A stretch of 35,580 bases of DNA, taken from Halorubrum lipolyticum DSM 21995 (GTDB lineage Archaea; Halobacteriota; Halobacteria; Halobacteriales; Haloferacaceae). The first letter of the stretch is position 1; the number at the start of each line of letters is the position of its first letter. The translations under genes were made by a program, and so were the position numbers. The notes under the pieces were generated by a model that saw nothing but the letters and a program-made list of their open reading frames with translations, had not been told where the DNA came from and did no database searches. Location: positions 117,047 through 152,626 of the forward strand of contig NZ_AOJG01000028.1 of NCBI RefSeq assembly GCF_000337375.1, in the 5' to 3' direction. This document shows, piece by piece, positions 9,280 to 28,483 of this stretch.

Positions 9280-9559
9280 GCGCCGGGAAGCGACCGATTC
9301 GATCGCTCTCGACCGCTGACGAACGGCGTGCCGAGGAACCGTACGCGGAGCTGGTCGACGGCGTCGCCCGCGTTATCGGGTGACGCCTGTAACGCGTCGG
9401 CGTCGACACGGAACCGACGCGACTGAACCCGACCTCACCGCGCGATCAGACGATCGAACCGCTCCGATTCGACCCGATTCCGACGCCCGGGTCCGGCCAG
9501 GAGGTGAGCGAAACTCCGTCCAGTGCCAACGACTCCCGCAACATCGGTATCCGAAGATA

Positions 9560-9576
9560 GTTCCCCAGAAGGGAAC
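9560..9576. promoter_or_regulatory. Operator-like inverted repeat, perfect copy
   Basis: GTTCCC, five bases, GGGAAC: a 17-bp perfect inverted repeat with the same half-sites and spacing as the copies at 11067 and 30764. It lies about 300 bases upstream of the TATA box of the SGNH esterase gene. No TATA element is visible right beside it. Confidence 0.7.
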
Positions 9577-9694: not shown

Positions 9695-9776
9695 TGTTCG
9701 GACTCTCAGATCGGGCTCTGAACGTGCGGCTCCGAGTGTCTCTCCGAGAATTGTATTACACTAGTATGCCTGTAAC

Positions 9777-9793
9777 GTTCTTCTCTCGGGAAC
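9777..9793. promoter_or_regulatory. Operator-like inverted repeat, degenerate copy
   Basis: GTTCTT, five bases, GGGAAC. The right half is perfect and the left half differs at two positions from the GTTCCC-N5-GGGAAC motif. It lies about 70 bases upstream of the TATA element of the SGNH gene. Confidence 0.5.
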
Positions 9794-9899: not shown

Positions 9900-10919
9900 A
9901 TGCAACGGGATAATATTGAGTTTCACAACGTCGAGGCGCTCCAACGGGTGGACTCACACGACGGAGTTCGCCTCCTCCGCGTTTCGGAGGCCGTCAGAAG
10001 CGAGTTGAACGACGGCGCACAGACGCGAATGCCGCATCCGGCGGGGAGCGAGATCCGCTTCGTTCCGGAGGGACCGGTCCGCGTCACGCTCTCCTCGGAA
10101 GAGCGGGAGAGCCTGGTCCGGCCGTTCTGGGGCGACTTCCAGGCGACCGGAGAGGAGTTCGTGCTCGGCCCGGAGCCGAAGACCGTCGAACTGTCCTTCC
10201 CGGACCGGCTTTCGAACCTCGATTCCGAAGCGACGGGCGACATGCGGTACGCCCCGGAAGTCTGCCGGCTCGTCCTCGCCGGCGACCACCGCGGCGGCCA
10301 CATCTACTACCACGACGTCGAAGGCGAGCGCCGCCCGCCCGCGGCCGACGAGGTGCCGCAACTCCGATACCTCGCGTACGGCACGTCTATCACGGAGGGC
10401 GAGGCGCCGACCGCAGAGATGCAGACCTACGTCAATCAGGCCGCTCGTCGGCTCGGTGCGGACCCGATAAACCTCGGCTCGTGCGGGACCGCCTTCTGCG
10501 ATTCCGCGATGGCCGAGCATATCGCCGACCGCGGGGACTGGGACGTGGCGACGCTGTCGCTGTCGGTGAACATGGTCAACCGGTTCACGCCCGACGAGTT
10601 CCGAGAGCGGGCGGCCGCGATGATCGAGACGGTCGCCGAGGCGAATCCGACGAAGCCCGTCGCCTGTATCACGCTCTTCCCGCACGTGCGCGAGTACAAG
10701 CGGGACCACGAGGAGGCGGCGCTCTCCGAGACGTTCCGCGAGAAACTCCGGGAGGCGGTCGCCGAGTGCGGCCACGAGAACGTCCACCTCGTCGAGGGGC
10801 CCGACCTCCTGCCGACGGCGAGCGGACTGACGACCGACCTCGTCCATCCCGGGGACGAAGCGATGATCCGGATCGGCGAGAACCTCGCCCGCGAGATCGA
10901 ACCGCTCGTGAGCAACTGA
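9900..10919 (+). CDS. SGNH/GDSL hydrolase, probable carbohydrate esterase
   Basis: The 339-residue protein has an N-terminal beta-rich domain (about residues 1-150, VEGERRP at its end) and an SGNH hydrolase domain. The nucleophile is S163 in AYGTSITEG, block II Gly lies in NLGSCG (about 192-196), block III Asn in LSVNMV (N224), and the C-terminal dyad is D313 and H316 (DLVHPGDE). The two-domain layout with a GTSIT nucleophile resembles carbohydrate-active acetyl esterases. In this locus a role in removing acetyl groups from imported pectic oligosaccharides is likely but inferred. No signal peptide is visible. The TATA element GTATAAGTG (9863-9871) gives a leader of a few bases. Operator-like repeats lie on both sides of the gene. 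Confidence 0.82.
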   Translation: MQRDNIEFHNVEALQRVDSHDGVRLLRVSEAVRSELNDGAQTRMPHPAGSEIRFVPEGPVRVTLSSEERESLVRPFWGDFQATGEEFVLGPEPKTVELSFPDRLSNLDSEATGDMRYAPEVCRLVLAGDHRGGHIYYHDVEGERRPPAADEVPQLRYLAYGTSITEGEAPTAEMQTYVNQAARRLGADPINLGSCGTAFCDSAMAEHIADRGDWDVATLSLSVNMVNRFTPDEFRERAAAMIETVAEANPTKPVACITLFPHVREYKRDHEEAALSETFREKLREAVAECGHENVHLVEGPDLLPTASGLTTDLVHPGDEAMIRIGENLAREIEPLVSN

Positions 10920-11066
10920 TCGGCGTTCGCGGGACTGCGCTGCTCGCGGTCGACTCTCCGAACGGAAACCGCTACGTGAGCGGAAAAATCGGAATGCCAC
11001 GGTCGTCGGGGCGTTCCTTCGACGCGTGCGGCGACGTGTCTCACCGGTCTGCAGCGGCGCCAGGCT

Positions 11067-11083
11067 GTTCCCGACTGGGGAAC
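11067..11083. promoter_or_regulatory. Operator-like inverted repeat, perfect copy
   Basis: GTTCCC-GACTG-GGGAAC, 17 bp, with half-sites identical to the copies at 9560 and 30764. It lies 63 bases (six helical turns) upstream of a degenerate copy. Confidence 0.7.
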
Positions 11084-11129
11084 GACGCTGTGCTCAGACG
11101 CGAGACGATCGGGTCGCTAGCCGACCGGG

Positions 11130-11146
11130 ATTCCCTGTCGGGGAGC
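11130..11146. promoter_or_regulatory. Operator-like inverted repeat, degenerate copy
   Basis: ATTCCC-TGTCG-GGGAGC. Five of six positions match in each half-site and the spacing is the same. It ends 16 bases before the TATA-like element at 11163-11172, a layout similar to the operator and TATA box of the IclR gene and of the transporter operon. Confidence 0.5.
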
Positions 11147-11346
11147 GCCGTCGTGAGCCGCGTTTTTGTATTCGATCGTGTACATATGATTCTCATATTC
11201 ATGTCACGTGAGAGCCGTCTACCGGTTTGACGGCGTGTCGCGGCTCACCTCCGATCGGAGCAGGAGCGATCGCCTCCGGGGTCGACCGCTCTCGACGGGG
11301 CGGGGACCGCACCAACATTATTACTCGAGCGGCAGTATCGGTTCGT

Positions 11347-11697
11347 ATGAGTCGGTACACACCGGACACCGTCGATGGGACGCTGTTTCTCGTCGGAGCG
11401 GACGACCGCGTCGAGATCGGGGCCGTCGACGACGTCGTCGCTGCGGTCGGCGGCGAGACGTATACGATCGAATACGATCAGCGACAGCGGAAGCAGCCGT
11501 GGTTGCGAACCGATGAGGGGGAACTCGAGATAGACGTTCGCGAGGCGGTGACGACGCTGTCTCACGGCGGCGAAACGGTCTCCGAGATCCGCGCGTCCGA
11601 CTTGGAAACCGACCGGTACGGGCTTCCAACGCGAACGGTCGAGTTCGCGGACACCGTCGTCGAGATTCTCGAACGACAGGGCTCCCGAGACGCGTGA
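11347..11697 (+). CDS. Hypothetical haloarchaeal protein, 116 aa
   Basis: I do not recognise this protein. It is a soluble, acidic 116-residue protein starting MSRYTPDTVDGTLFLVG, with beta-strand-like stretches and a C-terminal helix ending VVEILERQGSRDA; no motif or membrane segment is visible. The start at 11347 is chosen over 11227 because CATTATTA is centred 27 nt upstream, giving a leaderless transcript, and the upstream extension lacks acidic bias. It may also receive transcription from the orphan TATA element at 11163. Nothing links it to sugar metabolism. Confidence 0.65.
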   Translation: MSRYTPDTVDGTLFLVGADDRVEIGAVDDVVAAVGGETYTIEYDQRQRKQPWLRTDEGELEIDVREAVTTLSHGGETVSEIRASDLETDRYGLPTRTVEFADTVVEILERQGSRDA

Positions 11698-11774
11698 CGA
11701 CCGGACCGAGTCGTTCCCGGATCGATCCGCGGCGGCCGGTCCCTACACGACAGTTCCCGTCCGCCGTTCCCGAG

Positions 11775-11996
11775 CTAGTTGGCACCGGACGACCACAACC
11801 GCAACGCGCCGTAGCCGAGAACGGTCCCGAGCACGAGGGAGACTCCCCAGATTCCGAACATCCCCGCGAGGACGCCCTCAGACAAGATCACACCGCCGAT
11901 TACAGACAGAACACCCATCGCGATGAGCATCCAGAACAGGCGGCTTTTCGGAACGAACGACGTCCCACCGGCCGAACTGGACTGTTGCGTGGCCAT
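11775..11996 (-). CDS. Small two-helix membrane protein, 73 aa
   Basis: The protein starts MATQQSSSAGG and contains two hydrophobic segments: LFWMLIAMGVLSVIGGVIL (about residues 20-38) and a second from about 43 to 65 (AGMFGIWGVSLVLGTVLGYGAL). These fit a small integral membrane protein of unknown function. The start at 11996 is preferred over 12038 because the TATA element TTTATATAT (12019-12027 on the minus strand) is centred 27 nt upstream of it; the longer version would place the TATA box inside the coding region. It is convergent with the 116-aa gene and looks unrelated to the catabolic genes. Confidence 0.75.
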   Translation of the reverse strand: MATQQSSSAGGTSFVPKSRLFWMLIAMGVLSVIGGVILSEGVLAGMFGIWGVSLVLGTVLGYGALRLWSSGAN

Positions 11997-12139
11997 ACAA
12001 TGCGAGTGGTAATCACTCATATATAAACGTTTTCCCACTCCGGTTCGTCACGGGCCGCCGACACGGCCATCGGCGCGTGTCGTATCTCCCGGAGGGAGAA
12101 CGCGTCGCCTGACACGCCATGACGAACGGGTGACACGTC

Positions 12140-12562
12140 TCAGAACTCGTCGGTGTATATTATGTTATTCATCTGCGTTCGGGCGGCTCCCGCCACGCAG
12201 AGCAGCCCGATAGCGAGCGCGCCGATCGGGACCTTCCCCCGCCAGCTGGACCAGTGGTACCGCTCTTCCAAGGTGACGATATAAACGGTGTCGTCACGCT
12301 CGTATAGCAACGGGAGATAGTCCGGCGCCGATTCGCGGGAGCGGTACCACTGCCCCTCCCCGTCACGGGCGGCATCGACGGTCGACTGCCGCTCGGGACC
12401 GAGTTCCTCGTACGCCGAGACGTCGTCGTCGCTCGTCGACTGGAGCGTCGATTCGGTGACGTGGTAATCGATGGCGTACACCGCGGAGACTGGAACCAAG
12501 ACGAACAGAAACACCGATCCGACGATACCCACGATGAAGAGACGGGTGTCAGAAATTGGCAT
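12140..12562 (-). CDS. Hypothetical membrane protein, 140 aa
   Basis: The protein starts MPISDTRLFIVGIVGSVFLFVLVPVSAVYAIDYHV, an N-terminal membrane segment at about residues 9-30. A soluble acidic domain follows (about 31-112, with LYERDDTVYIVTLEE), then a second hydrophobic segment near VPIGALAIGLLCVAGAA (about 111-127). The topology places the central domain on the extracellular side, or both termini in the cytoplasm. The family is not recognised. The start at 12562 is supported by a TATA-like run at 12584-12595, about 26 nt upstream; the longer frame to 12946 crosses the neighbouring gene and is Arg/Gln/His-rich, unlike a halophilic protein. Confidence 0.65.
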   Translation of the reverse strand: MPISDTRLFIVGIVGSVFLFVLVPVSAVYAIDYHVTESTLQSTSDDDVSAYEELGPERQSTVDAARDGEGQWYRSRESAPDYLPLLYERDDTVYIVTLEERYHWSSWRGKVPIGALAIGLLCVAGAARTQMNNIIYTDEF

Positions 12563-12663
12563 GTCCAGCGGTTTCACGCGGCGGATCAAAGGTATTGTGG
12601 TCCGTTCGTTGTCCGAGAGACCGGCGGAATCAACACGGATCGAGATGAGCCGATCGCTTGAAC

Positions 12664-12697
12664 GTCGAGTGGCAGCAGTCGTCGAGTGGCAGTTGTC
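12664..12697. repeat. 17-bp tandem duplication
   Basis: GTCGAGTGGCAGCAGTC (12664-12680) is followed immediately by the same unit with two changes (12681-12697). It lies just upstream of the T-rich TATA-like element of the gene at 12737. Confidence 0.8.
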
Positions 12698-12736
12698 GTC
12701 GAACCTTTTTTGCTCTCCGACAGCGACACTCGACGC

Positions 12737-12973
12737 ATGGCCTCGAAAACGTATATGGACCATCTCTGCGAGCGTGAGACGGGTATTCGGTACGTGTTCA
12801 TCATCTCTCTGCTGTCGATCGTCCTGTTGATGGGGTCTTTGACGGTCGTCACACCCGGGACGGGGACGTACTACATCGCGGTTATACAGGTGGTCACGTT
12901 CGGATTCTTGGTCGTGTTCTCGTTCGGACTGATGACGCTTTGCCACCGTCGCGAAACGCAGCGGGAGCTGTGA
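12737..12973 (+). CDS. Small membrane protein, 78 aa
   Basis: The protein starts MASKTYMDHLCERETGIRYVF and has two hydrophobic segments, VFIISLLSIVLLMGSLTVV (about residues 20-38) and a second at about 46-68 (YIAVIQVVTFGFLVVFSFGLMTL), ending in a charged tail. The function is not known. I use the ATG at 12737 rather than 12686 because the T-rich element near 12705-12711 is centred about 28 nt upstream. It is divergent from the 140-aa membrane protein across a 174-base gap; both may belong to an unrelated small-protein cluster inserted between the catabolic genes. Confidence 0.65.
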   Translation: MASKTYMDHLCERETGIRYVFIISLLSIVLLMGSLTVVTPGTGTYYIAVIQVVTFGFLVVFSFGLMTLCHRRETQREL

Positions 12974-13032
12974 GATCCGATGGAAAGGCGACCGGCTCGA
13001 CGCCGCTGTTATATCATACTATTTTGAGAAAT

Positions 13033-13049
13033 ATTCCCATTCGAGAAAC
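13033..13049. promoter_or_regulatory. Operator-like inverted repeat, degenerate copy upstream of the transporter
   Basis: ATTCCC-ATTCG-AGAAAC: five of six left and four of six right positions match the GTTCCC-N5-GGGAAC motif at the same spacing. It ends eight bases before the TATA element of the transporter operon, much as the perfect copy sits against the IclR promoter. On its own it would be weak evidence; position raises it. Confidence 0.4.
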
Positions 13050-13057
13050 ACTAACAG

Positions 13058-13066
13058 TTATATATG
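13058..13066 (+). promoter_or_regulatory. TATA element of the transporter operon
   Basis: TTATATATG, centred about 37 nt before the ATG at 13099, predicting a leader of about ten bases. It is the strongest TATA match in the region and heads the five-gene operon. Confidence 0.6.
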
Positions 13067-13098
13067 ATGGCCAGTAACGCGTTATCGTAGCAAAAACC

Positions 13099-14940
13099 AT
13101 GAAGGATAACAGCCCTTGGACTCGACGCAAATTTGTCGAAATCGGTGCGGTCGCCGGCACCGGTCTACTTGCTGGTTGTACGGGTGGAAGTGACTCGAGC
13201 GGCGACGGTGAGGACGGAAACGGTTCGAGCGGCGACGGTGAGGACGGAAACGGTTCGAGCGGCGACGGTGAGGACGGAACGAACCGGTTTAACGCCGTCA
13301 TCGGACGCCCGCTTCCGGAGGTGCAGTTCAACCCCTTCAACATCCAGAACTACGGCCAGACCATCAGCATGTACCTCAACGTGTCGCTCGCTGACGGGCA
13401 TGCCGACGGAACCGTTCAATCGCGGTTCTTAGAGGACATCTCGACGGACGGCAGAGAGATGACGATGTCGATCCCGGAGGGATGGACCTACTGGAACGGC
13501 GACGAGATCACGGCAGAGGATTTATATACTGGGTTCGAAATCCAGCGGTACCAGAACTACGACTCGACGAACTACGAGAGCCACGAAATCGTCGACGACT
13601 ACACCGTGAAGCGGACGTTCAAGAGCCGCGTCACGCCGACACTGATGCAGGCCTCGCTCGTCGGCGATTCCTTCGTCCATCCCGAGCTGTTCTCGGAGTA
13701 CCTCGAGCAGTACGAAGACGCGGGCTCCGCGGACGAGCGGGACAGCGTCACCGAAGAGCTCATCCAGTACACGATCAGCGCGGAAGACTACATCGACGGC
13801 GGATACGGAACGGGCGTGTATCGGCCCACCGAGTGGAACAACGCGCGACTCGATGCGGAACTGGTCGAGGACCACCCGATGGCGGAGTCGACGGACGTGC
13901 CCGGGGTCCGCATCTACGCCGTCGGCGGTGAGAGCGAGGCGATGGCGAGGAACAACACGCTCGACCGAGCGTACGCGCACCCCAACGACACGTGGATGGA
14001 AGGCACGGACCTGGAGATTGAGAGCACGATCAACTGGTTCCGCGCCCAGAAGTTCATCCTCAACTGGAACAACGAGCACCTCGCGAACCTGAACGTCCGC
14101 CGGGCGGTCATGGCCATCATGCCGCTCGATGCCATGAGCGCGGCCGCGAACGAGGCCGGGTACAACGCGGAACCGACCCAGTTGCAGACCGGTCTCCGAG
14201 AGTCGATTCACGAGGAGTACCTCGGGGAGGACTTCACTGACCAGCTCATCGAGTACCCGGTCGCGTCTGATTCGGAAGCCGCCGCGGAGTACATGCGTGC
14301 GGCCGACTACACCCAGGAGGGCGGAAGCTGGGTCAGTCCCGAGGGCGAGCAGGTCTCGTTCAACATCCTCTCGCGAAGTAACACCGGGCAGGCGCTCCCG
14401 ACGACGGCCTTCTCGGACGCGCTCAACCGCTTCGGGATCGAGACGGAGGTGAACGCCATCGGCGAGGACTACTACACGACGCTGCAGAACTGGGAGTTCG
14501 ACATGGGGTGGGTCTGGCACGTCGCGTCCGCGCTGTGGCACCCGACCTCCTACTTCTCGAACGACTTCTACGGCGTCCGTGTCGGCGACCCGGAGGAGAC
14601 GGAAGGGACCGGTGAGACCGGCATTCCGCTTACCACGACCATCCCGAGCGAGGTCGGTTCCGAGGAGATCAGCGGGAGCGGCCAAGAGATCCGTCCGGCT
14701 CAGTTGAGCAACGATCTCCCGGCGTCCGAGTCGACCGAGGAGGTCCGAGAGACGACCCGAACGCTGGCGTGGTGGTTCAACTACAGCCTCCCGGCGATCG
14801 CCTACATCCAGGAGAATCAGACCCGCGCGATGGACACGACGAACTACGAGGTCGTCCCGGATACCCAACCGCCGCTGGACGTGAGCGAACCGATCATGAA
14901 AGGGCTGTTCAACGGTCACATCCGGGAAAATAGCTCGTGA
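13099..14940 (+). CDS. Dpp/Opp-class ABC transporter substrate-binding lipoprotein
   Basis: The 613-residue protein has a Tat-type signal (TRRKFV, residues 8-13), a hydrophobic stretch and a lipobox LLAGC with C27 as the lipidation site. A Gly/Ser/Asp/Glu linker follows, made of a tandem 10-residue repeat (about 33-60), then a family 5 solute-binding domain; EGWTYWNGDEITAEDLYTGFEIQRYQ is the typical segment. It should be anchored outside the membrane and deliver ligand to the permeases encoded next. Family 5 proteins bind peptides, but in archaea the same class also takes up di- and oligosaccharides. With hydrolases on both sides, pectic oligosaccharides are the likely ligand; this is inferred from context. 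Confidence 0.9.
   Translation: MKDNSPWTRRKFVEIGAVAGTGLLAGCTGGSDSSGDGEDGNGSSGDGEDGNGSSGDGEDGTNRFNAVIGRPLPEVQFNPFNIQNYGQTISMYLNVSLADGHADGTVQSRFLEDISTDGREMTMSIPEGWTYWNGDEITAEDLYTGFEIQRYQNYDSTNYESHEIVDDYTVKRTFKSRVTPTLMQASLVGDSFVHPELFSEYLEQYEDAGSADERDSVTEELIQYTISAEDYIDGGYGTGVYRPTEWNNARLDAELVEDHPMAESTDVPGVRIYAVGGESEAMARNNTLDRAYAHPNDTWMEGTDLEIESTINWFRAQKFILNWNNEHLANLNVRRAVMAIMPLDAMSAAANEAGYNAEPTQLQTGLRESIHEEYLGEDFTDQLIEYPVASDSEAAAEYMRAADYTQEGGSWVSPEGEQVSFNILSRSNTGQALPTTAFSDALNRFGIETEVNAIGEDYYTTLQNWEFDMGWVWHVASALWHPTSYFSNDFYGVRVGDPEETEGTGETGIPLTTTIPSEVGSEEISGSGQEIRPAQLSNDLPASESTEEVRETTRTLAWWFNYSLPAIAYIQENQTRAMDTTNYEVVPDTQPPLDVSEPIMKGLFNGHIRENSS
13195..13279 (+). repeat. 30-bp in-frame tandem repeat in the lipoprotein linker
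   Basis: A 30-base unit is repeated perfectly about 2.8 times, encoding SSGDGEDGNG three times (last copy partial). Perfect DNA identity, not just protein similarity, points to recent expansion by slippage. It would change linker length by ten residues per unit without a frameshift. Confidence 0.95.
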
Positions 14941-15011
14941 GAACTCGGCGCTCACTCACCCGACAACAAATGGTAACAAAGAAACGGTAACGGAATAACG
15001 AAGACACACGC

Positions 15012-16031
15012 ATGAATCTAAACTATCTCACACGGCGGCTCGGGCAGGCCGTCATCACGTTCTGGGCGACGGTGACGCTCACGTTTGCGCTCTATCACAT
15101 GATGCCCGGTGGCCCGGTGGAGTCGATGCAGAACATCATCCTCCAGCAGGTCACGACGTCCGGCGGGTCAGTCGACCTCGAACAGATCGAACAGATGGTC
15201 GCGCTGTACGCGAACATCCAGCCCAACGATCCGGTGTACGTCCAGTATATCGACTACTGGCGCCAGCTGCTGTTCGAGTTCAGCATGGGACAGTCGTTCT
15301 CACACCAGGAGCCGGTCACGACGCTCATCGCCGAGCGCGTTCCGTGGTCGATGTTCGTCTCGGTGTACTCGCTCGTCATCGGGTACACGGCGAGCATTCT
15401 GCTCGGGTCCGCGATGGCGTTCAAAGAGAAGAGCCGCTTCGACTCGATCATGTCCAGCATCATGGTCGCGCTGCAGTCGACGCCGTACTACATCGTCGCG
15501 CTCCTGCTGATCTACTCGGTCGCGTTACGGCTCGGCTGGTTCCCGACCGGCGGTCGCGTCGGCACGGGAGTCGAGGCCGGGTTCAACCTGGAGTTCATGA
15601 CGAGCGTCGTTCACCACGCGGCCCTGCCGATCCTCTCGACGAGCATTCTCGGGATCGCCGGCGCGATCTCGCTGCGAGGAAACGCGATCCGCGTCCTCGG
15701 CGAAGACTACCTCCGAGTGGCGGAGCTCCGCGGGCTTCGCCCGACTCGGATCGCGACCGAGTACGTCGGCCGGAACGCGATCTTGCCGATGTACACGCGG
15801 TTCATGATCGGGATCGCGGGGGTGCTCAGCAGCTCGGTCATCCTCGAGCAGATCTTCTCGTACCCGGGAATGGGACTGCTCATGTACAACGCGATCAACA
15901 TCAGGGACTACCCGTTGCTGATGGGGACGCTGATCATCTTCACGTCGATCACCATCATCGGGATCCTGATCGCCGACTTGACCTACGGATACATCGATCC
16001 GCGGGCGAGCGGCGGAGGTGGTACTGAATGA
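15012..16031 (+). CDS. ABC transporter permease, DppB type
   Basis: The 339-residue integral membrane protein starts MNLNYLTRRLGQAVITFWATVTLTFALYHMMPGGP, the standard first helix of DppB/OppB-type permeases. Further membrane segments lie near SLVIGYTASILLGSAMAF, IVALLLIYSVAL and IMVALQSTPYYIV. The coupling-loop region (RGNAIRVLGEDYLRVAELRGLRPTRIATEYVGRNAILP, EAA-type) contacts the ATPases. FSYPGMGLLMYNAI is also typical of the family. It is separated from the binding protein by 71 bases without a strong TATA element and overlaps the next gene by four bases, so it belongs to the same operon. Confidence 0.92.
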   Translation: MNLNYLTRRLGQAVITFWATVTLTFALYHMMPGGPVESMQNIILQQVTTSGGSVDLEQIEQMVALYANIQPNDPVYVQYIDYWRQLLFEFSMGQSFSHQEPVTTLIAERVPWSMFVSVYSLVIGYTASILLGSAMAFKEKSRFDSIMSSIMVALQSTPYYIVALLLIYSVALRLGWFPTGGRVGTGVEAGFNLEFMTSVVHHAALPILSTSILGIAGAISLRGNAIRVLGEDYLRVAELRGLRPTRIATEYVGRNAILPMYTRFMIGIAGVLSSSVILEQIFSYPGMGLLMYNAINIRDYPLLMGTLIIFTSITIIGILIADLTYGYIDPRASGGGGTE

Positions 16032-17050
16032 GTGACTCAGAAGGCGATACACAGTCGGAACTGGAAGCACTGTTCGAGCCCCAGGGCACCGTCGAGTCGC
16101 TGACACGCTGGGAGCGGGTGAAACAGCAGTACGACCTGTACGTTCGGGCGCCGCTGAAGGTGGCGATCAACGACTGGCGGACGGTCGTCGGCCTTGGGCT
16201 GCTCATCCTGTTCGGCCTGGCGGGAACCGTCGGCGTCTGGTTCACGGCGGCCCCGTCGTCCGGTCAGGCGCCGTTCCTGCTCGGTCCGTTCGAGAACTGG
16301 GCGTATCCGCTCGGAACCGACGTGCTCGGGCGACCGATCCACACGCAGCTCATCCACGCGACGCCCGCCATGTTCCAGATGATCCTCGGCGGCGCCGGAC
16401 TCGCGATCGGTCTCGCGACGGTCGTCGGCCTGCTTTCGGGGTTCCTTCGGGACACGGTGGTCGACAGGGTGCTCATGACGATCGCCGACGTCGTTATCAC
16501 GATCCCGGGGCTCCCGTTGGTGATGGTGCTTGTCGCCGTCTTCCAGCCGCGGAACCCGTACGTCGTCGGGGTTCTCCTGGGTCTCGACGCGTGGCCCGCC
16601 TTGGCGCGACAGATCCGTTCGCAGGTGCTCAGCATCCGCGAGGAACACTACGTCGAGGCCTCGCGGATAATGGGACTGAGAATCTGGACGATCCTCCGGC
16701 GGGACCTGTTGGGACAGCTCACGCCGTACATCGCCATCAACGCCGCGTTGGCGGCCCGCGGGATCATCTTCGGGTCGGTCGGGCTGTACTTCATCGGCGT
16801 GCTCCCGTTCAACGCGTTGAACTGGGGAGTGATGATGAACATGGCGTACGCCTCGGGGGCGCTGAACGAGACCGCGAAGCTCCACTGGCTCCTCTGGCCG
16901 ATGCTAACGATCTTCCTGCTGTCGGTCTCGTTCGTCCTGCTGTCGCAGGGCCTCGATAGCGTTTTCAACGTCCGGCTTCGAGCGCGACACGCGCAAACGG
17001 CCGGCGAAGGCGACACATCCGCTTCAAAAGGAGAACACGATAACGCATGA
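16028..17050 (+). CDS. ABC transporter permease, DppC type
   Basis: The 340-residue protein has a cytoplasmic N-terminal stretch of about 50 residues, a first membrane helix near VVGLGLLILFGLAGTVGVWF, then the family segment PLGTDVLGRPIHTQLIHATPAMFQMILGGAGLAI. The coupling loop (RQIRSQVLSIREEHYVEASRIMGLRIWTILRRDLLGQLTPYI) matches the EAA motif of DppC/OppC. It pairs with the DppB-type permease to form the membrane channel. Its start overlaps the preceding stop as ATGA and its end overlaps the ATPase gene the same way, indicating translational coupling. Confidence 0.92.
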   Translation: MSDSEGDTQSELEALFEPQGTVESLTRWERVKQQYDLYVRAPLKVAINDWRTVVGLGLLILFGLAGTVGVWFTAAPSSGQAPFLLGPFENWAYPLGTDVLGRPIHTQLIHATPAMFQMILGGAGLAIGLATVVGLLSGFLRDTVVDRVLMTIADVVITIPGLPLVMVLVAVFQPRNPYVVGVLLGLDAWPALARQIRSQVLSIREEHYVEASRIMGLRIWTILRRDLLGQLTPYIAINAALAARGIIFGSVGLYFIGVLPFNALNWGVMMNMAYASGALNETAKLHWLLWPMLTIFLLSVSFVLLSQGLDSVFNVRLRARHAQTAGEGDTSASKGEHDNA

Positions 17051-18108
17051 AATCCGAACCGATAGCCGAAGTCGAGAATCTCAACGTGGCCTTTCCCATG
17101 GATCGGGGCGAGTCGCGGGTCGTCCGCGACGCCGATATCGACATTTATCAGGACGAAATTCTCGGCGTCGTGGGCGAGAGCGGCAGCGGCAAATCGATGT
17201 TCGCCGCGTCGCTGCTCGACGGCGTCGTCGAACCGGGCGTGAGCCGCGGCGAGATCACGTTCAATCCGCCCGACGGCGGCGATCCGATCTCCGTCTTAGA
17301 CCTCACCGAGGAGGAGCTTCGGCGGTTCCGCTGGGACCGGGTCGCCATGGTGTTCCAGGGGGCGATGAGCTCGTTCAACCCCGTCAAAACGATCGGGGCG
17401 CACTTCAAGGAGACGCTCCAGGACCACAACAAGAACGTCGAAGAGGGCCTGGAGCGCGGTCGACAGCTGCTCGAAGACCTGTACCTCGATCCCGACCGCG
17501 TCATGGACTCGTATCCGCACGAGCTGAGCGGGGGCATGAAACAGCGCGGGCTGATCGCGTTGAGCCTGCTTCTCGACCCGGACCTGTTGATCCTCGACGA
17601 GCCGACGGCGGCGCTGGACCTGCTGATGCAGCGGTCGATCATCTCGCTCCTTCGAGAGGTGCAGACCAACTACGACGCGACGTTCGTGATGATCACTCAC
17701 GACCTGGCGCTGCTGTCGAAGCTGGCGGACCGAATGGTGATCATGTACGCCTTCCAGTTCATCGAGATGGGCGAAACCGACGAGATCATCTGGAACGCCT
17801 CGCACCCTTACACCAGGGCGCTGCTCGCGTCGACGCCGAGCCTGGCCTCGGACATCGACGAGATGAAGCCGATCCCCGGTGACAAGCCGGACCCGGTCGA
17901 GCAGTTCCACGGCTGCTCGTACAGCTCGCGCTGCCCGCTCGCGGACGAGCGGTGTCGCGAGGAGGAACCGCCGTTGAGGGCGGTAGAGGGGTCGACCACG
18001 CAACAGACGGCGTGCTTCCACTACGAGGACGCGGCCGAGGCGATCCACCTGCCGTCCTCGCCGCAGGAGGCCGCCGAGTCCGCCGCCGCCGACGGGGAGG
18101 GACAATGA
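17047..18108 (+). CDS. ABC transporter ATPase, DppD type
   Basis: The 353-residue ATPase has Walker A GESGSGKS (residues 43-50), the Q-loop FQGAMSSFNPV, signature LSGGMKQR, Walker B LLILDEPTAALD and the H-loop HDL. The C-terminal extension, HGCSYSSRCPLADERC, carries the Cys pattern of oligopeptide-transporter ATPases, which in some homologues binds an iron-sulfur cluster. It powers import together with the next gene product. It overlaps both neighbours by four bases. Confidence 0.93.
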   Translation: MKSEPIAEVENLNVAFPMDRGESRVVRDADIDIYQDEILGVVGESGSGKSMFAASLLDGVVEPGVSRGEITFNPPDGGDPISVLDLTEEELRRFRWDRVAMVFQGAMSSFNPVKTIGAHFKETLQDHNKNVEEGLERGRQLLEDLYLDPDRVMDSYPHELSGGMKQRGLIALSLLLDPDLLILDEPTAALDLLMQRSIISLLREVQTNYDATFVMITHDLALLSKLADRMVIMYAFQFIEMGETDEIIWNASHPYTRALLASTPSLASDIDEMKPIPGDKPDPVEQFHGCSYSSRCPLADERCREEEPPLRAVEGSTTQQTACFHYEDAAEAIHLPSSPQEAAESAAADGEGQ

Positions 18109-19169
18109 GCGGAGCCGACCCGGTCGTCTCGATGCAGGACATCACCGTCGAGTTCGGTGAGAGCGGTTTCGGCCCGTTCGGCGACTCCGAGGTCGTGCGC
18201 GCCGTCGACGAGGTGGACCTCGACATCGGCGAAGGCGAGGTGATCGCCTTAGTCGGCGAGTCCGGCTGCGGGAAGACCACGCTCGGCAAGACCGCGATCG
18301 GCTTCCAGCGTCCGACCGGCGGCACGATCCGCTACCGCGGCCAGGACATCGGGGAAGCGCGCGACAGCCGCAACCCCGACATCCCGTTCAGCGAGATCCG
18401 GCGGTCGCTTCAGATCATCCACCAGGACCCCGGAAGCGCGCTCAACCCGAATCAGCGCGTGATCACCTCGCTGCTGTTACCGCTGAAGAAGAACACGGAC
18501 CTGGGTCGCGGCGAGTGCAAGGAGCGCATCTACGCGCTCGCCGAGCGCGTCGGACTCACTCCCGTCGACGACTTCATGAACCGCTACCCGCATCAGCTCT
18601 CGGGCGGCGAGCAGCAGCGGACGGTCCTGATCCGGGCGATGATGATGAATCCGGACCTGATCTTGGCCGACGAGGCGATCAGCGCGCTCGACGTCTCGCT
18701 GCGGATCGAGATGATGGACCTGATGCTGGAGCTGCGAGAGCTGTTCAACACCTCGTTCCTCTTCGTGTCCCACGACCTCTCGAACGCGAGGTACCTGACG
18801 AAAAAATCCGGCGGACGCATCGCCGTGATGTACCTGGGTGAGATCGTCGAGATCGGGACCGTCGAGGAGATCATCGAGAACCCCCAGCATCCCTACACGC
18901 AGGCGTTGAAGTGGGCGACGCCGAACCTCTTCGTCGAGGACGAGGAGGACTCGCCGCTCCGCGGGCTCGACATCCCGGACCCCACGGAGAAGCCCGAAGG
19001 GTGTTCGTTCCACCCCCGCTGTCCGGAGGCCCGTACCGTCTGCGAGACGACGCGGCCGGGAGCGTACGAGAGCGACGACAGCGAGTACCGGTGTAAGTGC
19101 TTCCGCGCGACGGACGAACACGAGTACTGGAACAGCGAGGAGCTGGCGGGTTCCGAACTCGTCGAGTAG
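18105..19169 (+). CDS. ABC transporter ATPase, DppF type
   Basis: The 354-residue ATPase starts MSGADPVVSMQDITVEF at an ATGA overlap with the preceding stop; the longer frame from 17952 would run deep into that gene and is rejected. Walker A is GESGCGKT (residues 51-58), signature LSGGEQQR, Walker B LILADEAISALD, H-loop HDL. The C-terminal region has the Cys-rich motif EGCSFHPRCPEARTVC. Last gene of the transporter operon. It is convergent with the Hyi-like isomerase gene, with only 70 bases between stops. Confidence 0.93.
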   Translation: MSGADPVVSMQDITVEFGESGFGPFGDSEVVRAVDEVDLDIGEGEVIALVGESGCGKTTLGKTAIGFQRPTGGTIRYRGQDIGEARDSRNPDIPFSEIRRSLQIIHQDPGSALNPNQRVITSLLLPLKKNTDLGRGECKERIYALAERVGLTPVDDFMNRYPHQLSGGEQQRTVLIRAMMMNPDLILADEAISALDVSLRIEMMDLMLELRELFNTSFLFVSHDLSNARYLTKKSGGRIAVMYLGEIVEIGTVEEIIENPQHPYTQALKWATPNLFVEDEEDSPLRGLDIPDPTEKPEGCSFHPRCPEARTVCETTRPGAYESDDSEYRCKCFRATDEHEYWNSEELAGSELVE

Positions 19170-19239
19170 CGCCCGCCCGCAGACGTCTTTTGGTCGGAGC
19201 GCGTCGATAGCGCGGAAACGGTCGCCTGGTGCGGCCGGT

Positions 19240-19992
19240 CTACCGCCAGTCGAGGACTGTTTCGACCGCCTCGTCGGCGTCGCCCGTCGGCGAGAACTCG
19301 CACCCGACGTACCCGTCGTACTCGGTGTCGTCGATCGCCTCGAGGATGGCTTCGTAGTTGAGCTCTCCCGTTCCCGGCTCGTGGCGCCCGGGCACGTCGG
19401 CGACGTGGAAGTGGCCGATCCGGTCGACGTTGTCGGTGATCGTCTGAATGAGGTTCCCTTCGGTGACCTGCTGGTGGTAGATGTCGTACAGCAGCTTGAC
19501 GCGTGACGATCCGACGGCGTCGACGATGTCGAACCCCTCCGCCGACGTCTCGAGGAAGTAGTCGGGGTGATCGACGGCGGTGTTCAGCGGTTCGACGACG
19601 AGGGTCACCCCCGCGTCTTCGGCGTCGGGCGCGACGGCGGAGAGCGTCTCGATGACGGCCTCGCGCTGCGTGGGTCGGTCCAGCCCGTCCTGGTCCGGGC
19701 CGGTCGTCACGATCAGGACGGGCACGCCGTGGTCGGCCGCGACTGCGATCGACTCGCGGATCGTCTTCGCCGCCTCCTCGGTTCCCTCGGGATCGGTCAG
19801 CGTGCCGCCGGCGACGAAGCCCGCGACCGGAATGTCGACATCGGCGGCGGTGTCGGCGATCGCCTGGAGGTCCCTCGCGCGCCAGTCCCAGAACTCGACG
19901 GCGTCGGCGCCCGCTTCGGCGGCCCGCGACACGCGGTCGACGAACGGGTCGTCGTCGTACACCATCTCCAGGCAGATGGAGATGTCTGGCAT
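19240..19992 (-). CDS. Hydroxypyruvate isomerase-like TIM-barrel sugar isomerase/epimerase
   Basis: The 250-residue protein matches the AP-endonuclease-2/xylose-isomerase-like TIM barrel, and the motifs VVEPLNTAVDHPDYFL, LYDIYHQQVTEGN, GHFHVADVPGRHEPGTGELNY and GCEFSPTGD are those of hydroxypyruvate isomerase (Hyi) and related ketose epimerases. Glu, Asp, His and Glu residues in these motifs form the metal site in the family. Length agrees with Hyi (about 258). Its ATG directly abuts the stop of the upstream Gfo/Idh/MocA gene, so the two are one transcript and probably one pathway. In this locus the substrate could be a keto-sugar or keto-uronate rather than hydroxypyruvate; that is inference. 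Confidence 0.82.
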   Translation of the reverse strand: MPDISICLEMVYDDDPFVDRVSRAAEAGADAVEFWDWRARDLQAIADTAADVDIPVAGFVAGGTLTDPEGTEEAAKTIRESIAVAADHGVPVLIVTTGPDQDGLDRPTQREAVIETLSAVAPDAEDAGVTLVVEPLNTAVDHPDYFLETSAEGFDIVDAVGSSRVKLLYDIYHQQVTEGNLIQTITDNVDRIGHFHVADVPGRHEPGTGELNYEAILEAIDDTEYDGYVGCEFSPTGDADEAVETVLDWR

Positions 19993-21105
19993 CTACTCGT
20001 CCCCCGCGTCGTCCGCCGGTTCCGGGTTCAGCGCACCGTCCTCGACCATCGCGTCGAGCGGGTTGTCGTCGACCGCGAGCGGGAAGTCGACCCGACCGCG
20101 TTTCCGAGCGGACTCCCACGCCCCGAAGATGAGTTCGGTCGCGTTCAGGGCGTTGTGCGCGCCCAGCTCCGGCGTCTCGTCCTCCTCGAGACAGCGGACG
20201 TTCTCGGCGATCGCGCGGTCGATGAACGCCCAGTCGTGGAGGCCGTCCTCGGTCTCGACGGTCGTCCACCCGTCGTCGCCGGGGCGACGGATACGCAGGG
20301 CGGGGAGCTCTTCGTCGTCGTCTCCGGACGGGCCGAGTTCGATCGTGCCGTCGCTGCCGATCAGGCGGTTGTGACACCGAACGGCGCCGGCCGGTCCGCC
20401 GTCGCCGGCGGCGTCGCTCGTGCCGAGGCCGTGGACGCCGTTCTCGTACTCCCACATGAGAACGGCCTGGTTCTCGTTGTGCGAGCCGAAGACGAGGTTC
20501 TCCTCGCGGTAGTCGACCTGTGCGAGGACCCAGTCGGCCGGCGTCTCGTCGTTGAAGTAGTTACACAGATCCAGCGAGTGGCTCCCGTAATCGAAGATGC
20601 CGACCGGCGCCGAGAACTCGACGCGCTCCAGCTCGCCGATCTCGCCGTCGTCGAGGAGTCGCTTCGCGGTGCGGACGGCGTCGCTGAACCGACGCTGATG
20701 GTTGAACGTGAGCTGAACGCCGTGTCGGGCGGCCTCTTGCGCCATCAGACGCGCGCCGCCGTACGTCTGCGCCATCGGCTTCTCGCAGTGGATCGCGTCG
20801 ACGCCGGCCCGGCAGCAGTCGATCGCGATCGACGCGTGAACCGCCGGCGGCACGCAGAGCGAGACGATGTCGGGCCGGACCGCCTCGAGCATCGCCTCGT
20901 ACTCCTCGAAGACGCGGTCCTCGGCGATGTCGTACTGGGCGGCGAACGCCGCCGCGTTCTCGGGGACGATGTCGGCGCAGGCGACGAGGTCGCACGCGTC
21001 GTGTTTCTCGTAGCCCTCGGCGTGGTGATACGCCATCGCGTACCCGTCTCGCCCGGGGTCGTCCGGTTCCGCACCAGTACCGATCACTGCCACTTGGTAG
21101 GACAT
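19993..21105 (-). CDS. Gfo/Idh/MocA family oxidoreductase, paired with isomerase
   Basis: The 370-residue protein starts MSYQVAVIGTGAEPDDPGRDG, a slightly extended dinucleotide-binding loop with an insertion after GTG. It then has the family HCEKPMAQ motif (about residue 116) and a probable catalytic GSHSLDLCNYF in the C-terminal domain. It oxidises or reduces a sugar derivative with NAD(P). The TATA-like ACTTATTA (21131-21138 on the minus strand) lies about 30 nt before its ATG and is divergent to the GH51 gene. Gfo/Idh/MocA plus TIM-barrel isomerase pairs are common in inositol and keto-sugar pathways. Confidence 0.86.
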   Translation of the reverse strand: MSYQVAVIGTGAEPDDPGRDGYAMAYHHAEGYEKHDACDLVACADIVPENAAAFAAQYDIAEDRVFEEYEAMLEAVRPDIVSLCVPPAVHASIAIDCCRAGVDAIHCEKPMAQTYGGARLMAQEAARHGVQLTFNHQRRFSDAVRTAKRLLDDGEIGELERVEFSAPVGIFDYGSHSLDLCNYFNDETPADWVLAQVDYREENLVFGSHNENQAVLMWEYENGVHGLGTSDAAGDGGPAGAVRCHNRLIGSDGTIELGPSGDDDEELPALRIRRPGDDGWTTVETEDGLHDWAFIDRAIAENVRCLEEDETPELGAHNALNATELIFGAWESARKRGRVDFPLAVDDNPLDAMVEDGALNPEPADDAGDE

Positions 21106-21288
21106 GTCACCTCATCCGTAGCGAACTGTCTAATAAGTACCCGATGCCGTCCGCTCAGAACAACCGCACGAACCAGAGACGCGTGCCGTCATCTCCACCG
21201 CCCCCGCCGTCTGGAAACCCGCTCTCTGCTCCGGCGCTGGCGTGGGACATATCTTTTTGAACACCCGCCGCAAACCGGCGAGACGGAC

Positions 21289-22782
21289 ATGACTGACGCG
21301 AAGCTCACGGTGCATACGGACGCGGTCGTCGGACACGTCGACCCGGAGATTCACGGTCACTTCGCCGAGCACCTCGGTCGGTGTATCTACGACGGGATCT
21401 GGCGGAGCGACGGCGACAACGAGACCGGCCGCCGTGAGGGGGTCTTCGAACTGCTCGCGGACCTCGAGGTCCCGGTCCTCCGGTGGCCGGGCGGCTGTTT
21501 CGCCGACGACTACCACTGGGAGGACGGCGTCGGTCCCCGCGAGGAACGGCCGCGTCGCCGGAACCTCTTCTGGGCGCAGGGGCCCGAAGAGCGCCCCGAG
21601 GAATCGAACGCGTTCGGCACCGACGAGTTCCTCCGGTTCTGTGAAGCGATCGGGACGGAGCCGTACCTGGCGGCGAACGTGGGGTCGGGAGACCCGCGGG
21701 AGGCGGCCGACTGGGTCGAGTACTGTAACTACGGGGGCGACACGGCGCTCGCGGATCGGCGCCGCGAGAACGGCCGCGAGGACCCGTACGGCGTTCGGTA
21801 CTGGGGGCTCGGGAACGAGAACTGGGGCTGTGGCGGCCGGATGAGTCCGGAGCAGTACGCCCGGGAGTACCGCCGGTTCGCGACCTACGTCGGCACGCAG
21901 TCGAACCAGATGCTCGATCACGACCTCGAGCTCATCGCCTGCGGCTACGAGCGGCACGAGTGGAACCGTCGGTTCCTCGAGGAGGTCGGGAACTCGCCGT
22001 GGGGGCCGGAGTTCCCGCTCGACCACCTCACGTTTCACCACTACTACGGTCGAACGATGAGCGTCTCCGAGGCCGACGAGGACGACTTCGACGCGTTCCT
22101 CGCCGACGCGCTCGTGATGAGCGAGCACCTCGAGACGATCGCGGGGGCGATCGACGCCGTCGCGACGACCCGCGATATCGGGGTCATCGTCGACGAGTGG
22201 GGCGCCTGGCACCCCGAGGCCGTCGCGGGCAACGGCCTCGAACAGCCGGGGACGGTCCTCGACGCGCTCTCCGCCGCGGCCGTCCTCGACATCTTCAACC
22301 GCCACAGCGACGTCGTCACGATGACGAACATCGCCCAGACGGTCAACGTGTTGCAGTGCCTGGTCGAGACCGACGGCGACGACGCGTGGGCGCGGCCGAC
22401 GTATCGCGTGTACGACGCCTACGCGCCGCACAAAGACAACGAGGCGATCCGGACGACGATCGACACGCCGACCCGCGAACGCTCCGACGGCGACGACCTG
22501 CCGCTGGTCCGCGGCTCGGCGTCGACCGACGGCGAGGGCGCGTTCGTCTCGGTGACGAACCTCGACTGCCGCGACTCGCGCGCGGTCGAGGTGGCTGTCG
22601 AGGGGAAGCCGATCGAATCGGCCGAGGCGCGCGTCCTGTTCGCCGACCACGACCCGAAGGCGACGGTCACGGCCGACAACGCGGGGGAGTTCGCGTCCGA
22701 GTCGCTCGACGTCGAGGTCGACGGGAGCACGGTCAGCATGGAGCTGCCGCCCGCGACGGTCGCGACGGTGGACCTCTCGTAG
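21289..22782 (+). CDS. GH51 alpha-L-arabinofuranosidase
   Basis: The 497-residue protein matches GH51 length and motifs: IHGHFAEHLGRCIYDGIW at the N terminus, RWPGGCFADDYHWEDGVGP, acid/base E177 in GLGNENWGCGG and nucleophile E303 in VDEWGAWH. NIAQTVNVLQCL and a C-terminal beta domain follow. It removes terminal L-arabinofuranose from arabinan, arabinogalactan or arabinoxylan oligosaccharides and retains configuration. No signal peptide is seen, so it is probably cytoplasmic. The open frame extends far upstream (from 19567) but that part is antisense to the neighbouring gene; the ATG at 21289 has an AT-rich element near 21251-21260 about 33 nt upstream. Confidence 0.93.
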   Translation: MTDAKLTVHTDAVVGHVDPEIHGHFAEHLGRCIYDGIWRSDGDNETGRREGVFELLADLEVPVLRWPGGCFADDYHWEDGVGPREERPRRRNLFWAQGPEERPEESNAFGTDEFLRFCEAIGTEPYLAANVGSGDPREAADWVEYCNYGGDTALADRRRENGREDPYGVRYWGLGNENWGCGGRMSPEQYAREYRRFATYVGTQSNQMLDHDLELIACGYERHEWNRRFLEEVGNSPWGPEFPLDHLTFHHYYGRTMSVSEADEDDFDAFLADALVMSEHLETIAGAIDAVATTRDIGVIVDEWGAWHPEAVAGNGLEQPGTVLDALSAAAVLDIFNRHSDVVTMTNIAQTVNVLQCLVETDGDDAWARPTYRVYDAYAPHKDNEAIRTTIDTPTRERSDGDDLPLVRGSASTDGEGAFVSVTNLDCRDSRAVEVAVEGKPIESAEARVLFADHDPKATVTADNAGEFASESLDVEVDGSTVSMELPPATVATVDLS

Positions 22783-22806
22783 ACCGGGACGCTTCCGCGG
22801 TGAGCC

Positions 22807-22842
22807 GCCGGCGGATCGCCTGCTGCCGGCGGATCGCCTGCT
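22807..22842. repeat. 18-bp tandem duplication
   Basis: GCCGGCGGATCGCCTGCT occurs twice in perfect tandem (22807-22824, 22825-22842) in the 110-base gap between GH51 and the second dehydratase. Each unit contains GGCG-GAT-CGCC, a short hairpin. It ends about 20 bases before the TATA element of the next gene. Confidence 0.9.
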
Positions 22843-22861
22843 GCGGGCGAGTCTACCCGAA

Positions 22862-22870
22862 GCTATATTG
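22862..22870 (+). promoter_or_regulatory. TATA element of the second dehydratase gene
   Basis: GCTATATTG is centred 27 nt before the ATG at 22893, indicating a leaderless transcript. It supports that start against the much longer open frame from 21960. Confidence 0.6.
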
Positions 22871-22892
22871 GACGGGCAGCCACGCCCTAGGT

Positions 22893-24029
22893 ATGCAGAT
22901 CTCCAGCGTCGAGGCGATTCCGCTCGAACACTCGCTTCCCGACGGGCACGGACTCGGCGACGCGCGCAACTTCGGTCACGCGAGACAGACGACGCTCCTG
23001 CGTCTCGAGACCGACACCGGTCTCGTCGGCTGGGGCGAGGCGTTCGCGCCCGGTCGGATCGTGGCGGCGACCGTCGAGGAGCTGCTCGTCGACGACGTGG
23101 TCGGGATGGACCCCTTCGCGGTCGAGTCGCTCGCGACCGACTCCTACACGAGCCAGTACCACTTCGGGGGCGACGTCTTCCTCCAGAGCGCGGTCAGCGG
23201 CATCGACATCGCGTGCTGGGACATCGTCGGGAAGGCCGTCGACCGGCCGATCTATCGGCTCCTCGGCGGCACCGACTGCGAGTCGCTCGACGCGTACGCG
23301 TCGACGATGTACTACACGGAGGCCGAGAGGCCGCCGGCGGCGCCGATACGGGACGCGGTCGACGCGGGATTCGACGCGGTGAAGATCAAGATCGGCGCGG
23401 GTACCGACGGCGACGTCGAGCGCGTTCGCACCGCGCGCGAGATCCTCGGAGACGGCGGCCGTCTCATGGTCGACATGAACGGGAACTATCGCCCCCACCA
23501 GGCGATCGAGACGGCGCGTGCGATCGCCGAGTACGGCGTCGACTGGATCGAAGAGCCCGTCCCGCCGGAGAACGCGAGCGGCTACCGGGACGTGACGGAC
23601 GCGATCGACGTCCCCGTCGCGGCCGGCGAGGCTCACTACGGGCGGTTCGCGTTCAAGGACCTCGTCGACGAGCGCGCGGTCGACATCGTCCAGCCGAACC
23701 TCGGTCGCTGCGGCGGGCTCTCGGAGGCGCGGCTCATCGCCGGCATGGCGACGACGGAAAACGTCGCCGTCAGGCCCCACGTCTGGAACAGCGCCGTCGG
23801 CGTGGCGGCGGCGGTCCAGTTCGCCGCGAGCGTCCCCGACTACCCCCACAGCCGCAACGTGCCGGAGCCGATGCTGGTCGAGTTCGATCGCAGCGAGAAC
23901 CCGCTCCGAGAGGACCTCCTCGAGACGCCGATCGACCCGACGGGAGGCGAGGTCGACGTTCCCCAGGGCCCCGGGCTCGGCGTCTCGATCGACGAGGACG
24001 CGCTCGATCGGTACCGGCTCGACGAGTGA
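22893..24029 (+). CDS. Enolase-superfamily (mandelate racemase/muconate lactonizing type) sugar-acid dehydratase
   Basis: The 378-residue protein has the capping domain and TIM barrel of the MR/MLE group. Catalytic positions are K164-x-K166 (VKIKIG), D194 (VDMNGN), E220 (WIEEP), E246 (AGEAHYG), D264 (VDIVQPNLGRCGG) and H296 (VRPHVWNS). This KxK/His pattern differs from the KxD pattern of the dehydratase at 2877, so the two should act on different acids. In this locus galactarate, galactonate, arabonate or L-rhamnonate are candidates. It is encoded just downstream of GH51 and just upstream of the oligogalacturonide lyase, each with its own promoter. Dehydratase activity is inferred from family and context; racemase or cycloisomerase is possible. 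Confidence 0.8.
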   Translation: MQISSVEAIPLEHSLPDGHGLGDARNFGHARQTTLLRLETDTGLVGWGEAFAPGRIVAATVEELLVDDVVGMDPFAVESLATDSYTSQYHFGGDVFLQSAVSGIDIACWDIVGKAVDRPIYRLLGGTDCESLDAYASTMYYTEAERPPAAPIRDAVDAGFDAVKIKIGAGTDGDVERVRTAREILGDGGRLMVDMNGNYRPHQAIETARAIAEYGVDWIEEPVPPENASGYRDVTDAIDVPVAAGEAHYGRFAFKDLVDERAVDIVQPNLGRCGGLSEARLIAGMATTENVAVRPHVWNSAVGVAAAVQFAASVPDYPHSRNVPEPMLVEFDRSENPLREDLLETPIDPTGGEVDVPQGPGLGVSIDEDALDRYRLDE

Positions 24030-24079
24030 CCGGCCCGCCCCCCGGCGGTTCGATCGCGACCCCTTCTCTGCGAGACATA

Positions 24080-24092
24080 AGGGTTAATTACC
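24080..24092 (+). promoter_or_regulatory. TATA region of the oligogalacturonide lyase gene
   Basis: AAGGGTTAATTACC is the only AT-rich stretch in the 92-base gap and lies about 35 nt before the ATG at 24122, giving a leader of roughly nine bases. Confidence 0.45.
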
Positions 24093-24121
24093 TTCACTGC
24101 GTCGGGTTTTGACAGTCACTA

Positions 24122-25333
24122 ATGACAGCACACGATGCGATCACGCAGGGACCGAGAGCGGGGAGCAACTGGCCCGCCGAGCGCGAGACGTACGACGACC
24201 CGCACACGGGCGCTCGGGTGACCCGCCTGACGAGCTATCCGAACGCGGACGATTACCACCTCTACTTTACCGAGGACGGCTGGTACGACGACGGCCGACG
24301 GCTGCTCTTCCGCAGCGACCGAACGGGAAGCCGACAGCTGTTCTCGATCGACCTCCAGTCGGGGCTCATCACGCAAGTTACCGACATGGACGACTTCCAG
24401 GGCCAGACCACGATCGACCACGAGTCGTCGGTCGCGTACTTCTGGGTCGACGAGAAGCTGGTCCGCTTCGACCTCGATCGCCTCCGCGCGACGGGCGTGA
24501 TCTACGAGGTTCCCGAGGGGTACGACCCCGGTTCGATGGACGTCAACGCCGACGGGAGCGTCGTCTACGCGTCCATCGTCGAGGCGGACGTGGAGCTCCC
24601 CGGGGAGGAACCCATGATGGACGAGATGATGGCCGCGCGGCCGCACGTACAGCTGCTCTCCGTTCCGACCGACGGGGGGGACCCCGAACGGCTCTACGAG
24701 GAGGACCGCTGGATCAACAGCCACATCAACGCCTCTCCGACCGCGCCCGAGCGGTTCATGTTCTGTCAGGAGGGCCCGTGGGACGCCGTCGAGCACCGCA
24801 TCTGGGTGTTCGACGCCTCGTCGGGTGACACGTGGAAGGTGCGCGAGGTGCCCGAGGCGGCCGGTATCGGTCACGAGTACTGGATGGCCGACGGCGAGCG
24901 GATCGGCTACCACGGCTCGATGCGCGATCCGCAGGGACGGGCCAAAGCGGAGACCCCGGAGCCGTTCGCCGGCAGCGCCCGGTACGACGACACCGACTAC
25001 CGCGAGGCCGACCTCCCCGACTCGGTGTACGCGCTGACCCACACGCACGCGAACTCGCCCGAGCTGTTGGTCTGTGACGGCTCCTTCACTAACGTACCGT
25101 ACAACATCGCCTACCGCTGGAACGACGCGTCCGAGGAGTACGAGGGACCGCGTTGCCTCGCGACGGTCGACTGGAACGAGGGCAGTCCGCACCCCCACTC
25201 TCGGTTCAGTCCGGACGGCTCGCAGGTCCTGTTCGACTCCGACCGGTACGACGGATCGAGCAACCTGTATCTGGTCGACGTGCCGGCGTTCGAGTCGCTC
25301 CCCGAATACGAGCCGTCTGAGTGGGACCGGTAG
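24122..25333 (+). CDS. Oligogalacturonide lyase, PL22 family
   Basis: The 403-residue protein has the seven-bladed beta-propeller pattern of oligogalacturonate lyase (about 390 residues in bacteria). Diagnostic stretches are INSHINASPTAPERFMFCQEGPWDAV (H201), GIGHEYWMADG (H251), GYHGSMRDP, ALTHTHANSPELLVCDG (H307, H309) and SPHPHSRFSPDGSQVLFDSDR (H357, H359). The His cluster is consistent with the metal site of the family. The enzyme splits unsaturated and saturated digalacturonate in the cytoplasm, giving 5-keto-4-deoxyuronate (DKI). No signal peptide. It faces tail to tail an SDR gene that could act on a product further down. It is the clearest marker that this region handles pectin. Gln replaces the His that many bacterial members have in the FC-x-EGPW motif, as I recall it. 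Confidence 0.88.
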   Translation: MTAHDAITQGPRAGSNWPAERETYDDPHTGARVTRLTSYPNADDYHLYFTEDGWYDDGRRLLFRSDRTGSRQLFSIDLQSGLITQVTDMDDFQGQTTIDHESSVAYFWVDEKLVRFDLDRLRATGVIYEVPEGYDPGSMDVNADGSVVYASIVEADVELPGEEPMMDEMMAARPHVQLLSVPTDGGDPERLYEEDRWINSHINASPTAPERFMFCQEGPWDAVEHRIWVFDASSGDTWKVREVPEAAGIGHEYWMADGERIGYHGSMRDPQGRAKAETPEPFAGSARYDDTDYREADLPDSVYALTHTHANSPELLVCDGSFTNVPYNIAYRWNDASEEYEGPRCLATVDWNEGSPHPHSRFSPDGSQVLFDSDRYDGSSNLYLVDVPAFESLPEYEPSEWDR

Positions 25334-25369
25334 ACGGAACGGGGCCGCGACGATGTCGCCCCGCGGCCG

Positions 25370-26152: not shown

Positions 26153-26347
26153 ACCGCACCGCACGTGGACGGTTCGTTTATGAGTATCGACGGCGCCCGC
26201 CCGCGACGTCTCGCGACGATTCGCACTGACAAGGCGGCCGCCTCGGCGACTCGGTCATAAGTGGGTACCAGCACCGCCGCTCTTCCGTTTATAAACGGAC
26301 GCCGACACCGCTCTCTCACTTATAAATAACCGATCGCCCGAACCGAG

Positions 26348-28354: not shown

Positions 28355-28483
28355 ACGAGTACGTGCGACCGTCCCGATTTAGTTCAACCGATCACCGCGG
28401 TCGATCTCCCGGCAGCGACTCGGCGGCGATCGCCGTTCGGCATGAGAAGCTTACTTACTGATGGGCCCACAACGTCGAGTCGA

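Follow-up and report, generated by a model that had tools for sequence, protein, structure and literature searches.

Operator-like repeats and an AT-rich tract upstream of 11347

The window, by which we mean the whole 35,580-nucleotide stretch of Halorubrum lipolyticum DSM 21995 DNA analysed here, contains a gap that has a GDSL/SGNH esterase gene (9900-10919, + strand) as its upstream neighbour and is followed by a gene for a conserved 116-residue haloarchaeal protein of unknown function (11347-11697, + strand). Within the gap lie a perfect IclR-type operator, GTTCCC-N5-GGGAAC (11067-11083, centre 11075, matching at 12 of 12 positions), a weak operator-like repeat (11130-11146, centre 11138, 10 of 12), a TATA-like element, TTTTTGTATT (11163-11172, + strand), and an AT-rich tract (11160-11206); here and below, operators, palindromes, tracts and spacers are given without strand. 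The presumed binder of the operator is an IclR-family regulator encoded at 29957-30730 on the - strand. The first-pass annotation had described this arrangement as a regulated promoter with no recognisable gene immediately behind it, and its measurements stand: the repeat centres are 63 bp apart, the TATA-like element begins 16 bases past the second repeat, and a 14-codon frame runs from 11186 to a stop at 11228-11230. Both repeats exist as described, but not at equal strength, the first scoring 25.3 bits and the second 3.0 bits on a weight matrix trained on 50 sites of relatives that match at 11 of 12 positions or better, a choice that makes the scoring strict.

Sites with at most one mismatch to GTTCCC-N5-GGGAAC number three in the window (9560, 11067 and 30764), all of them intergenic, against 0.15 expected, and none of 100 shuffles reached three. 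The perfect form occurs five times in the genome, every time on the window's contig (C28, of which the window covers 117047-152626). At its outer positions the operator also fits the IclR group-1 consensus GKTYCRYW3-4RYGRAMC (Suvorova and Gelfand, 2021, PMC8222616). The gap DNA itself proved to be single copy in the genome in a repeat check; a search of 52 genomes of the genus returned no relative of it beyond short chance matches, and a plasmid search matched only its coding neighbours, at 60-80% identity.

The second repeat, ATTCCC-N5-GGGAGC, has lost two conserved bases, and about 16 sites equally good on the weight matrix would be expected per window. By mismatch count alone, p is ~0.01 for finding a 10/12 match no more than 100 bp away and ~0.0005 for one at 62-65 bp, this spacing having been taken from operator pairs of Haloferax and genus g16. 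Its role as an operator is doubtful; we keep it as such rather than rejecting it because 63 bp is close to the 62-65 bp between the paired operators that Haloferax and genus g16 have ahead of their GDSL genes. The six helical turns originally read into this distance do not hold as a general rule: most of the other spacings in the regulon (116, 120, 139, 144, 160, 164, 200 and 216-219 bp) depart from multiples of 10.5.

The AT-rich tract is one of only three places in the window where the GC content over 40 nt is 32.5% or less, and the other two lie just upstream of genes. A perfect AT-rich palindrome, ATATGATTCTCATAT (11184-11198), the sole copy in the window, sits in this tract near the predicted transcription start. 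The TATA-like element might represent an upstream or alternative core promoter; because the start is predicted ~27 nt past it, at ~11195, the ATG at 11186 would precede the transcript. On the + strand, the frames behind the element span only 9-14 codons in the frame considered by the first-pass annotation. Its suggestion of a non-coding RNA or small peptide gained no support from closer analysis. A hidden RNA was rejected on the lack of an Rfam match and on folding no better than that of shuffled sequence (z = -0.29), and a hidden peptide on the tiny size of the frames and their lack of conservation in a gap without relatives in the 52 genus genomes. The gap yielded no conserved short reading frame, and no terminator-like site was found on the + strand before 11347.

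The IclR regulator and its predicted uronate/pectin regulon

An operator of the same type (30764-30780) is centred 42 bp before the start codon of the IclR gene, and it keeps this position, at 41-43 bp, in 11 of 11 annotated relatives with regulators 61-72% identical, the match being 11-12 of 12 in ten of them and 10 of 12 in Haloarcula marina. The proposed resemblance of the 11067 operator to an IclR promoter is thus borne out, while that to a transporter promoter is weak, the site at 13041 matching at 9 of 12 positions with ~1.4 such scores expected per window. Matches of at least 11/12 number 23 in 186 kb of annotated relatives, and every one of them falls outside the annotated genes; an operator-pair search across the order added matches in five genomes outside the family. 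The neighbours of the IclR gene include a 2,5-dioxovalerate dehydrogenase (815 bits, above the NCBIfam cut-off), a KdgD/DHDPS-family gene (below the cut-off), MR/MLE enzymes, GH28 and pectate lyases; judging from this gene content, the neighbourhood is a uronate/pectin regulon. The site at 11067 has the sequence, and belongs to the positionally conserved motif, expected of an operator of the window's IclR regulon, and we infer that 11067-11083 is a binding site of the uronate/pectin regulator encoded at 29957-30730. The motif would then be tied to a specific haloarchaeal regulator with a conserved autoregulatory position; in the literature searched we found no paper describing the operator motif of a haloarchaeal uronate/pectin regulator.

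Like IclR group-1 operators (PMC8222616), these sites have the outer bases GTTCC...GGAAC, a length of 17 bp and an autoregulatory copy near the regulator gene. Unlike them, they lie 84-497 bp upstream and are spaced by 62-219 bp, whereas the published bacterial sites are mostly at -20 to -80 relative to the gene start, with a tandem spacing of 18-22 bp. The known haloarchaeal IclR regulators of sugar use, XacR, GacR, RhcR and MscR, are activators (PMC11519228 and references therein). The window's protein resembles them at the family level, as an IclR-type regulator of a haloarchaeal sugar-catabolism cluster, but its cluster encodes the oxidative uronate route (2,5-dioxovalerate dehydrogenase, KdgD-like gene) together with pectin enzymes.

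In Haloferax and genus g16 the GDSL gene belongs to the targets of the regulon; its promoter in the window carries a perfect operator (9560-9576), a promoter-proximal operator of 10/12 (9777-9793) and a second palindromic motif of the regulon, TTACA-N10-TGTAA (9756-9775). The Haloferax and genus g16 promoters have the same operator as the gap, as a pair ~285-365 bp upstream of the start; the gap pair differs in lying 3' of the GDSL gene, in its weak second site and in the absence of TTACA-N10-TGTAA, for which the best match in the gap is 6/10. That motif, whose middle is often GTAC or GTAT, accompanies the GDSL gene and several other targets, not every site, and recurs near IclR operators in many relatives (L096 10546, L053 7836, L125 17912, L128 1612 and others, besides the window copy), with a chance rate of 0.005 per 10 kb. 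It is probably the site of a second regulator distinct from IclR.

Origin of the gap

Among named organisms, Haloferax species have the cluster's nearest relatives. Their gene order is KdgD-GDSL-AEC-ALDH-IclR-GH105-type, where AEC stands for a transporter gene and ALDH for the aldehyde dehydrogenase gene; in the window this order is broken between GDSL and ALDH. Of the KdgD-like (DHDPS-family) gene found ahead of GDSL in the relatives, a 33-residue 3' stub (9282-9380, + strand) is left. Downstream of GDSL, a retained spacer (10929-11010) is homologous to the Haloferax GDSL-AEC spacer, with the breakpoint to its right, before 11067; the homology has a z of 5.0 when the search is limited to the spacer and only 1.0-1.4 when it is widened to AEC, and it picks up again before ALDH (z of 5.6-6.3). 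The AEC gene is missing from the locus, with only a 47% paralogue elsewhere, and no AEC or ALDH remnant was found in the gap. Relative to Haloferax, ~17 kb (11011-28440) stands in place of AEC, with the 11347 gene, an ABC transporter, an arabinofuranosidase, an oligogalacturonate lyase and GH42.

Because the retained spacer homology ends at ~11010 with no AEC DNA beyond it, the 11067 operator falls, on this comparison, within the replaced DNA and close to its left edge, and is not the old promoter of AEC. A leftover AEC promoter was likewise rejected on the grounds that the operator is outside the ancestral spacer and that AEC has no operator in the relatives. The earlier idea of a promoter left over from a deleted target gene, to be checked by synteny, is therefore correct in that AEC has been lost relative to Haloferax, but the operator cannot be attached to that gene.

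Control of the 11347 gene and competing explanations

The gene most likely served by the operator is that at 11347. A search of 170 genomes found its family in 16, and the 16 sequences share 13 invariant residues. Family members occur in company with carbohydrate clusters, and in several cases the homologue adjoins the ATP-binding gene of a solute transporter. The protein model is confident (pLDDT 85.5) and gave no structural match in the PDB at E<=0.001. The closer homologues carry a ATTATTAC-like (CTATTATTAC-like) element ~30 nt ahead of the ATG, as does the window, so a leaderless promoter of its own is most likely for the gene, predicted at ATTATTAC (11317-11324, + strand, ~30 to 23 nt before the ATG). 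The 11067 operator is 272 bp and the degenerate site 209 bp from its start, distances that are unremarkable because in annotated relatives the regulon operators other than the autoregulatory one are 84-497 bp away from the closest suitable start; those of the GDSL gene lie 118-365 bp upstream. The earlier statement that no recognisable gene follows must be withdrawn, given this conserved family with its own conserved promoter and the routine occurrence of distal operators in the regulon. At the xylose promoter of H. volcanii, regulation depends on DNA 250-750 bp upstream (PMC10448506). In one genome with a 68% IclR orthologue, an 11/12 operator begins 125 bp ahead of a 42% relative of 11347, and none of the closer homologues (58-71% identical) has an operator within 500 bp; the link between operator and 11347 is therefore known only in the window and one distant relative.

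We propose, with moderate confidence, that the 11067 operator controls the 11347 unit from upstream. The regulator would bind 11067-11083 and act on the gene from there, whether or not the degenerate site assists, through the leaderless promoter as the working core promoter; by analogy with XacR and MscR, it is probably an inducer-dependent activator. The TATA-like element at 11163 may provide a second, upstream start, giving a leader of ~150 nt to 11347, so that a separate RNA or peptide would be unnecessary. What had seemed a promoter without a gene then probably amounts to normal regulation within a gene cluster that has been rearranged. Such a scenario predicts distal control in archaea and draws a conserved family of unknown function into a testable regulon. 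Against it stand the lack of operators near the closer homologues of 11347, the absence of TTACA-N10-TGTAA from the gap, and the AT-rich tract immediately past the weak site, whose promoter-like character exceeds what distal control of 11347 would call for.

Operators in gene-poor DNA are also found elsewhere. Four strong ones lie in a ~1-kb gene-poor stretch at C28:176006-176759 (L096 10007-10760). Their neighbours are an intact gene of the KdgD family, along with the GDSL promoter elements, and a GDSL copy that has decayed; the four may act on the adjacent transporter, and the spacers around them have no homology to the gap beyond the operators. Two perfect operators also stand 120 bp apart on a Haloarcula marina plasmid (L123 3787-3923), flanking an AT-rich tract; the gap that holds them separates two convergent genes and has no annotated gene start.

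The main rival to control of 11347, and in our view an unlikely one, is that the operator and AT-rich tract are relics of a gene lost in the ~17-kb replacement, with nothing useful transcribed now. The rearranged locus fits such a history, with its truncated KdgD-like gene, interrupted Haloferax order and missing AEC, and so do the degenerate second repeat and the position of the operator directly right of the left breakpoint. The first operator, however, is perfect and the AT-rich tract intact; AEC is operator-less in relatives, and no gene remnant was found in the gap. The C28:176k operators, moreover, retain 46 of 48 consensus bases despite the decayed GDSL copy (P<0.001 under drift with 25% divergence), which suggests selection to maintain operators even where the adjacent gene is dead.

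Those same four operators, with the Haloarcula marina pair, lend some substance to a different thought, that 11067 is an accessory operator, one of a spread set looping to other sites or titrating the regulator and no particular gene's promoter; both examples have genes within looping distance, though, and the PLSDB annotation is incomplete, and we regard this as improbable. Its broader form, in which haloarchaeal uronate IclR regulators keep gene-distant operators as a looping or titration network that includes 11067, strikes us as very improbable. It also seems quite improbable that a short RNA or micro-ORF is expressed under IclR control from ~11195: the promoter-like elements past the second repeat and a 9-codon frame that would begin at 11201, near the predicted start, would suit such a transcript, but they have to be set against the ATG at 11186 ahead of that start and against the negative outcomes for Rfam, folding, genus-wide conservation and a terminator given above.

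A last observation concerns another genome of the set (G115, L098 10988-11709), in which ALDH is missing and a 720-bp gap separates AEC from IclR; within this gap, the site at 11408 is a perfect operator and the one at 11572 matches at 10 of 12 positions.
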